Of a DNA stretch of 41,142 nt, positions 17,329-32,701 are shown one piece after another. Origin of the DNA: Hyphomicrobiales bacterium (GTDB taxonomy: Bacteria > Pseudomonadota > Alphaproteobacteria > Rhizobiales > Rhizobiaceae); NCBI GenBank assembly GCA_900466575.1, contig UBMP01000030.1, forward strand, positions 1 to 41,142, given 5' to 3'. Every line of letters begins with the position of its first letter. The first letter of the stretch is position 1. The notes under the pieces are model-generated. The model searched no databases and was not told the origin of the DNA. It saw only the letters and a list, made by a program, of their open reading frames with translations. A program made the position numbers and the translations under genes.

Positions 17329-18033
17329 ATGTTTGACGCCAAGAAACTGCTGGAACAATTTCTCGGAAGCCAGGTACCGGGGACGGGCAAATCCGTGAGC
17401 GGCTCTGCCCAAAGCGCCCTCGACCTGGCGCGGCGCAATCCGCTTGCCGCAGGCGCCATTGCCGGATTGCTGCTGGGCACCAAGACCGGACGCTCACTCT
17501 CGACCTCCGCCCTGAAGGTGGGCGGACTCGCCGCGATTGCCGGGCTCGGCTATCAGGCCTACAAGAATTATCAGGCCGGCCAGTCGCCGGAGCAGGCGAC
17601 GCCGCAGGTGACGTCCGACAGCCCGCTCGCGCTGCCGCCGCCGCATTCGCCCTTTCATCCCGACTCCGAGGCGAATGACGAGGCCTTTGCGCTGGTTCTG
17701 GTCCGCGCGATGATTTCCGCCGCGCGGGCCGATGGCCATATCGACGACGTCGAGCGCGGCCGGATCATTGGCAAGATTTCGGCAGCCGGTTTGGACCCGG
17801 ATGCCGAGGCCTTCCTCGAAAGCGAGCTTTCGCGACCTGCCGATCTCGATAGCTTGGTTGCAGCCGCGCAAACCGAGGAACAGAAAGTGGAACTCTACAC
17901 CGCGTCGCGTCTGGCCATAGAGCCCGATACCCGCTCCGAGCGCGGCTATCTCGACCTGTTGGCCGGAAGGCTGGAATTGCCGGATGCGCTCGTTGACCAT
18001 ATCGACGTCGCCGTGACCGCGGCAAAGACCTGA
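17329..18033 (+). CDS. DUF533 (YebE-like) membrane-associated protein
   Basis: This 234-residue protein has an N-terminal segment LLEQFLG followed by a small-residue-rich hydrophobic stretch (about 38-78, with NPLAAGAIAGLLLGTKTGR and GGLAAIAGLGYQAYKNYQ), then a proline-rich linker and a C-terminal helical domain with DEAFALVLVRAMISAARADGHID. That pattern is DUF533, related to TerB-like helical domains. The biochemical role is unknown; some members respond to envelope or tellurite stress. GGAGAACGAC precedes the ATG at 17329. It lies 69 bp after eda but may be separately transcribed, and a terminator follows it. Confidence 0.88.
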   Translation: MFDAKKLLEQFLGSQVPGTGKSVSGSAQSALDLARRNPLAAGAIAGLLLGTKTGRSLSTSALKVGGLAAIAGLGYQAYKNYQAGQSPEQATPQVTSDSPLALPPPHSPFHPDSEANDEAFALVLVRAMISAARADGHIDDVERGRIIGKISAAGLDPDAEAFLESELSRPADLDSLVAAAQTEEQKVELYTASRLAIEPDTRSERGYLDLLAGRLELPDALVDHIDVAVTAAKT

Positions 18034-30071: not shown

Positions 30072-30962
30072 TTACAATTTCTTAAACCACGACTGCAGGA
30101 AGTCGACGAAGGTGCGCACCTTGGCCGGCAGGTGGCGGCGATGCGGGTAGACGGCATAGATGCCGCGATCGCTCGGCAGGTACTCGTTGAACAGCACGAC
30201 AAGCTCGCCGCTCGCGATATGCTTGCGCGCGACGAAATCGGGCAGCAGCGCAACGCCGAGGCCGGCGAGCGCGCCGCGCAGCGTCGCCGTCGGGCTATTC
30301 ACCTCGATCGGACCGGAAACCTGCACGGAGAAGGAAGAGCCATCCGGCTCGAAGAAGCGCAGCACGCCCTTGCGGCGGCTGTTGGAGTCGATCAGGCAAG
30401 GGACCTGCGACAGGCCCGTCGGGTGATCAAGGTCCTTGTGGCGGGCCAGAAAATCCGGCGTCGCGCAGATATTGAGACCGAAGTCGGTGATCTTGCGGGC
30501 AATGAGGCCCGAATCCTCCAGCTTCGTCACGCGAATCGCGAGGTCGAATCCTTCCTCGACCAGATCGACGAAACGGTCCTCGGCCATGATCTCAAGTGAA
30601 AGGTCGGGATGCAGCTTGGCGAAGTCGATAAGGCAATGGCCGACATCGGCATCCACGAAGGTGCGCGGCACGGAAACCTTCAGCCGGCCCTTCAGATCCG
30701 CATTGTTTTCGCGCACGAGATCGGCGAGTTCGTCGATTTCCTTCAGGATTTCCGAGGCCGAGCGGTAATAGGTCTTGCCGGCTTCGGTGAGCGAAAATTG
30801 CCGGGTCGTACGGTTGAGGAGGAGGGCGCCAAGCTCGTCTTCCAGTTCGCGCACATATTTGGACAGCAGCGCCTTGGAACGTCCGAGCTTGCGGGCAGCG
30901 GCTGAGAAGCCCTCCGCGTCCACGACGTCGATGAAGGCCCTGATCCGCGTGAGAGTATCCAT
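30072..30962 (-). CDS. LysR-family transcriptional regulator
   Basis: This 296-residue regulator has an N-terminal winged helix (MDTLTRIRAFIDVVDAEGFS, then AARKLGRSKALLSKYVRELEDELG), a linker helix and a substrate-binding domain of the LysR type with GRLKVSVPRTF and DRGIYAVYPHRRHLPAKVRTFVDF near the end, as in the aminoacid/aldehyde-responsive (CrgA-like) branch. The ATG is at 30962. It is divergent from the ornithine decarboxylase leader, but the roughly 600-bp gap does not show whether it controls that gene. The usual T-N11-A site was not identified. Confidence 0.93.
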   Translation of the reverse strand: MDTLTRIRAFIDVVDAEGFSAAARKLGRSKALLSKYVRELEDELGALLLNRTTRQFSLTEAGKTYYRSASEILKEIDELADLVRENNADLKGRLKVSVPRTFVDADVGHCLIDFAKLHPDLSLEIMAEDRFVDLVEEGFDLAIRVTKLEDSGLIARKITDFGLNICATPDFLARHKDLDHPTGLSQVPCLIDSNSRRKGVLRFFEPDGSSFSVQVSGPIEVNSPTATLRGALAGLGVALLPDFVARKHIASGELVVLFNEYLPSDRGIYAVYPHRRHLPAKVRTFVDFLQSWFKKL

Positions 30963-31052
30963 TTTGCCTCGCTAAATTTTTCAAGGAATATAAGTGCACC
31001 GTACGACCCATTTCAATCGTTGCAAAAAAAATGGCACGGATCAAAAAAACTC

Positions 31053-31080
31053 TTGATTACGACAGCGAATGTTCTTATCT
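31053..31080 (+). promoter_or_regulatory. Candidate promoter of the odc leader
   Basis: TTGATT (31053-31058) and TTATCT (31075-31080), 16 bp apart, form a reasonable -35/-10 pair that would start the leader near 31087. The surrounding 30963-31060 segment is A/T-rich and shows no gene. Other promoters are possible. Confidence 0.35.
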
Positions 31081-31084
31081 CCGC

Positions 31085-31567
31085 GGTTGCCCAAAGTCGC
31101 ACGTGCCTGTGGGTGTCCGCCGACCCTCGAACTGGGATTTAATCCCTAAGGTGAGGTTATCGGTAAGGTACCTGGAACTAACCGCTCCAGTCGCTATTCC
31201 GGCCAACCGGGAAATGCGAGGACATCTTGAAGCAACGACGGTGCGGGCCTTTCTGGTGTCTGCCGGCTTTCCAACAGCCGGGGTTACTGAAGAGGCACAC
31301 CTTCATTGCCGGAAGTGCGGTCGGGTTCTCCCCTCCAATCCAAGGCAGACAAAGTGAATGATCGCTCGTCTACGAGCGTTTGTTCGTCATTTGCGTTTGC
31401 GTTTCGCTCAGGTTCCGGGGTCTCCACCGGCTGGTTCCTGCTCGGTTCGTCATCCGCGCTTTGTCCTTCGGGAATAGTTTGATTCTCGAAGCCATGCCGT
31501 TCCAACGCCCCGTTCGATGAACGTTCGGGTCGATGGGTAACTGACTCTGGATTTTTGGAGACCCGCC
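31085..31567 (+). ncRNA. speF-type leader RNA upstream of ornithine decarboxylase
   Basis: A roughly 480-base untranslated region precedes the decarboxylase. Its position and length match the speF RNA motif described for alphaproteobacteria. It contains many possible helices: GGGAT/ATCCC (31134-31146), GCGGTT (31083-31088) with AACCGC (31180-31185), CCGGCT/AGCCGG (31263-31281), CGCTCG/CGAGCG (31363-31378) followed by a T-rich stretch, and CGTTC/GAACG (31511-31523). Assignment rests on context and structure, not a covariance search. Open frames in this region are short or weakly supported. Confidence 0.75.
31418..31564 (+). promoter_or_regulatory. RBS-sequestering helix of the odc leader
   Basis: GGGTCTCCA (31418-31426) is exactly complementary to TGGAGACCC (31556-31564), which contains the ribosome-binding site GGAG three to four bases before the ATG at 31568. 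Pairing would block translation. Release by a change upstream, perhaps caused by a polyamine or by ribosome movement, would switch the gene on. Confidence 0.7.
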
Positions 31568-32701
31568 ATGACCTCGCAGCGCATCCTCGACTTCTTCAAG
31601 ACCCGCCAGCCGGAAGGTCCGTGCCTCGTCGTCGATCTCGATGTCGTCGCCGGCAATTTCAAGGCGTTTCGTCATGCCCTGCCGGACAGCCATATCTATT
31701 ACGCGGTCAAGGCGAACCCCGCACCGGAAGTCCTGCGCCTTCTCGCAGGTCTCGGCTCCAATTTCGATTGCGCGTCCGTCGCTGAAATCGAAATGGCGCT
31801 CGACGCCGGCGCGACTGCTGCCCGCATCTCCTATGGCAACACCATCAAGAAGGAGCGTGACATTGCCCGCGCTCATGCGTTGGGGGTCAGCCTCTTTGCC
31901 GTCGACAGCCATGAGGAAGTCGAGAAGATCGCTCGCGCCGCCCCCGGCGCCCGCGTCTTCTGCCGCGTGCTGACCAATGGCGAAGGTGCCGAATGGCCGC
32001 TCAGCCGCAAGTTTGGTTGCGTGCCGCAGATGGCCGTCGACGTGCTCGTCTATGCGCATCAGCTGGGTCTCGAGTCGTTTGGCGTCTCGTTCCATGTCGG
32101 TTCGCAGATGACCAAGGTCGATGCCTGGGATGCGGCGCTGTCCGACGCCAAGCGCGTTTTCGTCTCGCTCGCCAAGCAGGGCATCGAGCTGAAGATGGTC
32201 AACATGGGCGGCGGCTTCCCGACGAAGTACCTGAAGGACGTGCCGACCGCACAGGCCTACGGCCAGGCGATCTTCGCGTCGCTCTCCCGGCATTTCGGCA
32301 ACCGGATCCCGATGACCATCATCGAGCCGGGCCGCGGCATGGTCGGCAATGCAGGCGTGATCAAGGCGGAAGTCGTCCTGATTTCGAAGAAGTCGGACAA
32401 TGACGAACACCGATGGGTCTTCCTGGACATCGGCAAGTTCGGCGGCCTGGCCGAGACGATGGACGAAGCCATCCGCTACCCGATCCGCACGGAGCGCGAT
32501 GCCGACGACATGGGCCTCTGCGTGCTGGCCGGCCCGACCTGCGATTCGGCGGATGTTCTTTACGAGAAGAACATGTATCCGCTGCCGCTCTCGCTCACCA
32601 TCGGTGACGAGGTGCTGATCGAAGGCACGGGCGCCTACACGACGACCTATTCGGCCGTCGCCTTCAACGGCTTCGACCCGCTGAAGTCCTACTGCATCTG
32701 A
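31568..32701 (+). CDS. Ornithine (or lysine/ornithine) decarboxylase, alanine-racemase fold
   Basis: This PLP enzyme of 377 residues makes putrescine from ornithine and may also act on lysine. The PLP-lysine lies in YYAVKANP (K48), the glycine loop is NMGGGFPTKY, EPGRGMVGNAG binds the phosphate, and the second-subunit cysteine is in GPTCDSADVLY (C325). This is the eukaryotic-like fold III class, normal for rhizobia, and not the large inducible E. coli SpeF type, although the leader family bears that name. The ATG at 31568 follows GGAG closely and is subject to the predicted helix. A terminator follows. Confidence 0.95.
   Translation: MTSQRILDFFKTRQPEGPCLVVDLDVVAGNFKAFRHALPDSHIYYAVKANPAPEVLRLLAGLGSNFDCASVAEIEMALDAGATAARISYGNTIKKERDIARAHALGVSLFAVDSHEEVEKIARAAPGARVFCRVLTNGEGAEWPLSRKFGCVPQMAVDVLVYAHQLGLESFGVSFHVGSQMTKVDAWDAALSDAKRVFVSLAKQGIELKMVNMGGGFPTKYLKDVPTAQAYGQAIFASLSRHFGNRIPMTIIEPGRGMVGNAGVIKAEVVLISKKSDNDEHRWVFLDIGKFGGLAETMDEAIRYPIRTERDADDMGLCVLAGPTCDSADVLYEKNMYPLPLSLTIGDEVLIEGTGAYTTTYSAVAFNGFDPLKSYCI

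Follow-up and report, generated by a model that had tools for sequence, protein, structure and literature searches.

Whether the long leader of a rhizobial ornithine decarboxylase gene controls that gene, and whether it does so by hiding the ribosome-binding site (RBS), is the question raised by a contig of a Hyphomicrobiales bacterium from the Rhizobiaceae (UBMP01000030.1, assembly GCA_900466575.1). The window, meaning the whole stretch of DNA that was analysed, is 41,142 nt long. Ornithine decarboxylase (ODC) catalyses the first step of the pathway from which rhizobia obtain the polyamines putrescine, homospermidine and spermidine, and its mRNA has a long leader of an already known type, speF. 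What the speF element does was an open question in a report of 2005 (PMC1273637) and was still described as unclear in one of 2020 (PMC7717549); a further paper gives its ligand as unknown (PMC3766115). A preliminary description of this locus proposed that a helix of 9 bp within the leader locks the RBS. The gene and the 5' part of its leader are laid out as follows.

31052–31080, plus strand: promoter-like pair (CTTGAT 31052–31057, 17 nt, TTATCT 31075–31080) just 5' of ar45, putative, picked out by eye
31089–31252, plus strand: ar45 (RF02347; 160.3 bits, gathering score 40), which may form the 5' portion of a composite leader
31261–31407, plus strand: speF leader as in Rfam (RF00518; 100.7 bits, gathering score 37)
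31263–31281, plus strand: first speF hairpin, stem CCGGCU/AGCCGG, 7-nt loop uuccaac with UCCA at 31270–31273
31568–32701, plus strand: ornithine (or lysine/ornithine) decarboxylase, 377 aa (PF02784, E 2e-56; PF00278, E 1.4e-12)

Its domains place the gene product among the decarboxylases of the ornithine/diaminopimelate/arginine group (COG0019-type), with its substrate assigned by homology. Its best solved relatives in the PDB are the lysine/ornithine decarboxylase 5gjm and ornithine decarboxylases, and no NCBIfam model matched it at that model's cut-off. The Rfam speF covariance model, suggested earlier as a check, matches the leader over its full length (model positions 1–153), and on this evidence the leader is a clear, ordinary member of the known speF family ahead of an ODC-like gene, as had been described. 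In score, downstream gene and position it belongs with the RF00518 speF element as presented in the relevant part of PMC1273637. At E ≤ 0.001 the model is found in all six genomes of the genus, in 171/199 of the family and in 145/297 of the order; the corresponding numbers above the family cut-off are 6, 167/199 and 118/297. None of the 14 well-known control genomes has a match at E ≤ 0.001. The folding energy of the whole leader is unremarkable (z −1.65; 5 of 100 shuffles were as good). Transcripts of this type are described in the portions of two studies that treat them: SmelC706 of S. meliloti, which overlaps RF00518 and C45 (PMC2873474), and MH_s23 of M. huakuii, with RF00518 (PMC5596092). 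In R. etli, according to the expression results given for odc (CH03629), the gene is repressed under both shocks studied, heat and salt (PMC4167512). We also note, by eye, that GGCA at 31294–31297, in the loop of a GAAG/CUUC hairpin, could pair with UUGCC at 31306–31310 directly 3' of it, which would make a small pseudoknot within the conserved core of speF.

The leader may begin well upstream of the speF element. The window copy of ar45 is a clear member of its family, known as Smr45C in S. meliloti and Bbar45 in Bartonella in the part of PMC7717549 that covers them, and lies directly upstream of speF with a gap of 8 nt. Among 61 loci searched with an ar45 3'-end pattern, 42 have a gap of 8 nt, 10 have 9 nt and one has 6 nt; the pattern is missing from the other 8, all of them distant. 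The two elements are also similarly common, ar45 occurring in 172/199 and RF00518 in 171/199 family genomes. This fixed position before speF suggests one leader, and we suspect that ar45 and speF form a composite leader, of about 480 nt in total if transcription begins at ar45, as we infer. A single sigma-70 scan of the plus strand from 30950 to 31600 predicted no promoter, neither in the gap between ar45 and speF nor at the pair picked out by eye, whereas the northern blots described in PMC7717549 have ar45 expressed independently of speF in Bartonella, and earlier work had found the same in S. meliloti. The same account has the Bartonella speF running into its gene in a transcript of over 700 bases. 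A shared leader and independent ar45 would be compatible if processing or termination releases ar45 as a 5' product. A divergent LysR-type regulator gene (PF00126, PF03466; 30072–30962, minus strand) starts about 90 nt from the promoter-like site ahead of ar45.

The helix proposed to lock the RBS has the following two arms.

31418–31426, plus strand: proposed 5' arm GGGTCTCCA, the last stem base and most of the loop of hairpin C (see below)
31556–31564, plus strand: proposed 3' arm TGGAGACCC, which contains the Shine–Dalgarno sequence (SD) GGAG

The complementarity is exact, as had been stated: the arms are 9 nt long, 100% complementary and 129 nt apart, with the ATG at 31568. In 3000 dinucleotide-preserving shuffles of the upstream stretch, with the 20-nt RBS held fixed, an exact complement to the RBS of at least 9 nt turned up in 1.3% of cases when the stretch was 150 nt long, in 2.7% at 240 nt and in 2.6% at 310 nt. 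The window has 23 ORFs of 150 aa or more with an SD, and two of them have a run of at least 9, namely ODC (9) and one other (10). The match is therefore real and moderately unlikely to arise by chance, and not extreme. Both arms are identical in five of the six genus genomes (L001, L031–L034), so that the genus itself is almost uninformative. The sixth (L035) has 8 contiguous pairs with one G-U, GGGTCTCC/GGAGATCC, over a loop-to-ATG distance of 98 nt as against 146–148 nt in the others. Elsewhere, long matches between block and RBS occur in L188 (10 nt) and in L010 and L011 (9 nt each).

Covariation of the two arms in relatives had been set beforehand as the refutation test, and neither an alignment nor a swap test detected it. 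We kept 241 of 242 loci (L161, with no ODC match, was left out) and aligned 225 after removing duplicates and rows that were too short or contained N. The conserved block that holds the 5' arm is present in 184 of these, giving 144 distinct block/RBS pairs. Alignment A1 consists of 109 rows thinned by similarity from 189 that match a pattern for the 5' strand of helix P1 (see below) and also have the block and a TTTGT; because its RBS end is gappy, the alignment-free swap test was added. Over the 144 pairs the mean length of the longest exact complement between block and RBS is 4.69 nt for a leader's own RBS, as against 4.78 nt after swapping and 3.63 nt after shuffling the RBS, and the swapped RBS does at least as well as the own one in 924 of 1000 swaps. 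The same holds on both sides of 84% ODC identity to the window: the 69 pairs below it average 5.54 (own) and 5.48 (swapped; 264/1000 swaps), and the 75 pairs at or above it 3.92 and 4.01 (941/1000 swaps). Runs that tolerate G-U and duplex energies agree that block and RBS are not coupled. UCUCC thus has general complementarity to SDs, with no coupling to its own RBS, and in the clade at or above 84% identity only one of 75 distinct RBSs has a run of at least 7 against the consensus block. In A1, 47.1% of the cells in the nine column pairs of the helix form a standard pair and 11 are changed on both sides; the shuffles give 47.5% and 18. Two seemingly compensatory cases, L176 and L196 (AUCUC/GAGAU), were considered and set aside: in L185, L202, L206, L212 and L215 the pairing stays at short runs of 5 or 6, so that no compensation is claimed. 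Cases were too few to compare the base that follows GAGA in the RBS between leaders with GUCUCC and AUCUCC loops.

Folding predictions depend strongly on the RNA chosen. The helix has a probability of about 1.0 in RNA 31418–31566 and 0.9 in 31410–31600, and in longer RNAs of 0.002 (31261–31566), 0.13 (31261–31600), 0.006 (31089–31600) and 0.74 (31261–31660). Forcing it costs 3.4, 1.8 and 4.2 kcal/mol in 31261–31566, 31261–31600 and 31089–31600, respectively. Competitors for the SD are 31323–31331 (about 0.7–0.98 in two constructs) and the first hairpin loop, 31268–31273 (about 0.9 in one construct). We conclude that the 9-bp helix is physically possible and, on comparative evidence, lacks support as a device conserved outside the genus. 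What stands of the earlier reading is the speF-type leader ahead of an ODC-like gene; the 5' arm, moreover, falls in a block that ranks among the best conserved in the leader tail.

That block belongs to a fold obtained with RNAalifold on A1, consisting of a long-range helix P1 and hairpins A and C. It extends 59 nt past the end of the Rfam speF match at 31407.

31342–31466, plus strand: conserved tail domain, our model R1 (85.4 bits), overlapping the end of the Rfam model
31348–31354, plus strand: P1, 5' strand, GACAAAG
31363–31378, plus strand: hairpin A, CGCU/AGCG with a variable loop; 4 of 4 pairs changed on both sides in A1
31411–31438, plus strand: hairpin C, stem 31411–31418/31431–31438 (GGUUCCGG/CUGGUUCC) with two U-U mismatches
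31459–31465, plus strand: P1, 3' strand, CUUUGUC

Taken together, P1 and hairpins A and C are paired in 95.3% of A1 cells. Shuffles reach 90.0%, and sliding the structure along the alignment never gives more than 53.9%, a control that leans towards the structure because the structure was derived from A1 itself. Changes on both sides number 81 cells, against 23 in shuffles, and are spread over 9 of 17 pairs. Hairpin C alone is paired in 94.5% of cells, with 4 of 6 pairs changed on both sides. Four of the seven P1 pairs are invariant in A1 and one is changed on both sides; the filter on block and TTTGT means that P1 in A1 is partly selected for. We therefore note a separate count over the 209 of 241 loci that match the P1 5'-strand pattern, their 3' strand being unfiltered: counting G-U as a pair, 193 of these tails keep an unbroken run of 7 and 16 fall short of it, whereas with the 5' strand shuffled only 15 of 209 reach it. 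Changed pairs are kept in L046, L055 and L163 (GACAAAA/TTTTGTC) and, over 6 pairs, in L123 and L158 (GACAAG/CTTGTC). P1 has a predicted probability of 0.83–0.99 in RNAs 31261–31566, 31261–31600 and 31089–31600, falling to 0.25 in 31261–31660, where the anti-RBS helix wins.

R1, built from 55 of the 109 A1 rows with the window among these seed sequences, matches its own genome at E ≤ 0.001 at this site and nowhere else. It matches 139/199 family genomes and 7/199 order genomes, six of the latter within the family; the one order-wide match outside the family (G110) is weak, at 29.4 bits. The exact tail domain is thus a feature of the family, and RF00518 reaches further. The covariation shows that a further conserved domain, closed by the predicted helix P1, overlaps the end of the Rfam model and continues downstream of it. 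In their passage on this element, Corbino et al. (2005) noted further conserved blocks before the start codon, with no confident fold (PMC1273637); P1 and hairpins A and C give these unassigned blocks a predicted, covariation-supported fold. Among open-licence PMC titles and abstract beginnings, we found none on the tail domain of alphaproteobacterial speF or on RBS masking by it.

The apical loop of hairpin C (12 nt, 31419–31430, GGUCUCCACCGG) contains UCCA, which is invariant in all 109 A1 rows, rows that were chosen partly for that block. The first speF hairpin carries a similar loop, of 7 nt, for example UUCCAUC or UUCCAAC, closed by U-A. For comparison, leaders were divided into near, middle and distant clades by ODC identity to the window, cut at 84% and at 75% (motif counts) or 75.5% (hairpin counts). 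A strict pattern (7-nt loop U[YYCCANM]R, stem of at least 5) finds the 5' hairpin in 124/128 near, 8/82 middle and 11/31 distant leaders, and nothing in the rest of the window on both strands (80,884 bases) or in the flanks of the loci (534,783 bases). In most of the 30 middle-clade rows shown, the first loop is GUCCANA, so that the common loop core is UCCA. A pattern hairpin nearer the gene, 25–170 nt from the start codon, is present in 11 of the 31 distant leaders, with differing stems. In eight of these, from other families of the order, it lies 68–72 nt before the ATG on unrelated stems, with the loop CUCCACA, CUCCAAA, UUCCACC or UUCCAUC; in the other three it lies at 49 or 154 nt. Four distant leaders have both hairpins and 13 have neither. 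The strict pattern finds no 3' hairpin in the 128 near and 82 middle leaders, where the hairpin C loop is 12 nt long.

The RBSs were then compared with these loops, using non-redundant RBSs. UGGA occurs no more than 28 nt from the ODC start in 38/58 near and 41/69 middle leaders, against 25/179 other ORFs, and is not enriched in distant leaders (6/28); GGAGA is found in 3/58 near, 55/69 middle and 15/28 distant leaders and 20/179 other ORFs, counts that carry no correction for shared descent and in which any SD resembles a complement of CUCC. The near-clade RBS has UGGAA in 28/58, UGGAG in 1/58 and GGGA in 41/58, so that the near-clade loop, mainly CUCCA, is left with a C-A mismatch against the prevailing UGGAA. 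In every second A1 row (55 of 109), the predicted accessibility of the SD averages 0.243, compared with 0.299 with shuffled leaders, and is lower in 34 of the 55 (p 0.033).

The excess of UGGA close to ODC starts in two clades makes it possible that contact with a loop masks the SD. Our main reading, to which we assign a probability of roughly 0.4, is that the leader controls ODC translation by masking the SD with the UCCA loop of hairpin C. The apical loop, with UCUCCA, would pair with UGGA(G) at the RBS, and the like loop of the first hairpin possibly does so too. The loop-to-SD contact would form a pseudoknot across P1; the loop-RBS helix would cross P1 and could coexist with every pair of hairpin C but 31418/31431. 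Some signal would then rearrange the tail domain and free the SD. In the genus of the window the contact would be extended to 8–9 bp, which would be the complementarity that was first noticed. Pyrimidine-rich loops complementary to SDs are known from aSD-loop sRNAs of rhizobia, such as AbcR and NfeR1; those loops act in sRNAs, whereas the loop in the window lies in cis, in an mRNA leader.

Of these readings, masking by loop-to-SD contact is the simplest; its main rival is a partner of the loops, either protein or RNA, and the two disagree on whether loop and RBS should show compensation. Against masking, loop and RBS are not coupled and distant leaders show no UGGA enrichment. The same two observations, with a loop that stays invariant, fit the proposal that the conserved loops are where an RNA-binding protein or a second RNA docks, or else that they make a tertiary contact within a ligand-binding fold; their resemblance to an anti-SD would then be incidental. 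A dimeric protein would be well served by leaders in which both hairpins carry this type of loop (4/31 distant leaders), and S. meliloti ar45 co-precipitates with Hfq, according to the part of PMC7717549 that describes it. No partner is known, however, and UGGA is enriched at ODC starts in two clades; we regard this proposal as somewhat unlikely. A dedicated, genus-specific helix 31418–31426/31556–31564 that switches ODC translation draws on the exact complement, on 8–9 contiguous pairs kept in all six genus genomes, in L035 despite the shorter distance to the ATG, on the long matches in L188, L010 and L011, and on the high probabilities in RNAs 31418–31566, 31410–31600 and 31261–31660 (about 1.0, 0.9 and 0.74). 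The lack of covariation, an own RBS no better than a swapped one, and probabilities of 0.002, 0.13 and 0.006 in the three RNAs where P1 is favoured make it decidedly unlikely. That a GC-rich leader simply happens by chance to match an SD, the block not masking the RBS at all, would agree with the frequency of such complements in shuffles (1.3–2.7%) and with the lack of coupling, but the match is retained in six genus genomes and UGGA is enriched in two clades; we consider it improbable.

The signal had been suggested to be ornithine, polyamines or translation of a short frame. E. coli SpeF has a different decarboxylase fold; it is likened to the window gene by name only, the window protein matching PF02784/PF00278. 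At the RNA level the enterobacterial speF leader with orf34/SpeFL is also a long ODC leader with an inhibitory structure that hides the RBS, and both it and the window have a CU-rich stretch opposite the RBS, as far as the structural account in PMC6386406 describes it; in contrast to that system, no conserved upstream frame was found here among those tested. An arginine-rich frame of 39 codons (31358–31477), which overlaps the proposed 5' arm, was considered as a SpeFL-type sensor and rejected: in a comparison of 59 leaders with an exact core, at a threshold of 20% arginine, such a frame at this place is listed for none of the other 58. A frame from the conserved ATGCGAGGAC in ar45 was likewise rejected, varying from 13 to 106 codons in 111 loci with frame shifts. 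A 7-codon frame (31517–31540) was seen by eye. A short translated frame as the signal is thus unlikely, and control of ODC by a translated upstream frame in the manner of orf34/SpeFL, for which the arginine-rich and 7-codon frames might be cited, is highly improbable, given that the former is listed only for the window among those leaders and the ATGCGAGGAC frame is so variable.

Direct sensing of ornithine, putrescine or spermidine is also unlikely. In-line probing of the leader of A. tumefaciens from −400 to +3, published in PMC1273637, gave no measurable binding for any of six compounds: ornithine, lysine, diaminopimelate, putrescine, cadaverine and spermidine. Homospermidine, a main polyamine of most rhizobia according to PMC13293326, was not among these six compounds. 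An extended scheme, which we think unlikely, is a two-hairpin switch, in which the UCCA loops of the 5' hairpin and of the P1 domain would compete for UGGA(G), or act jointly through one partner, with an untried molecule such as homospermidine, or a dedicated RNA-binding protein, as the signal. With a tail fold and an invariant loop able to touch the SD, the question of how speF works is reduced to a few point mutations and probing.

Finally, we note that long complements to an RBS are not confined to this gene: the ORF that starts at 17329 (in coordinates of its own strand) has a 10-nt exact complement to its RBS, TCTCCGTCTC, within 150 nt upstream.
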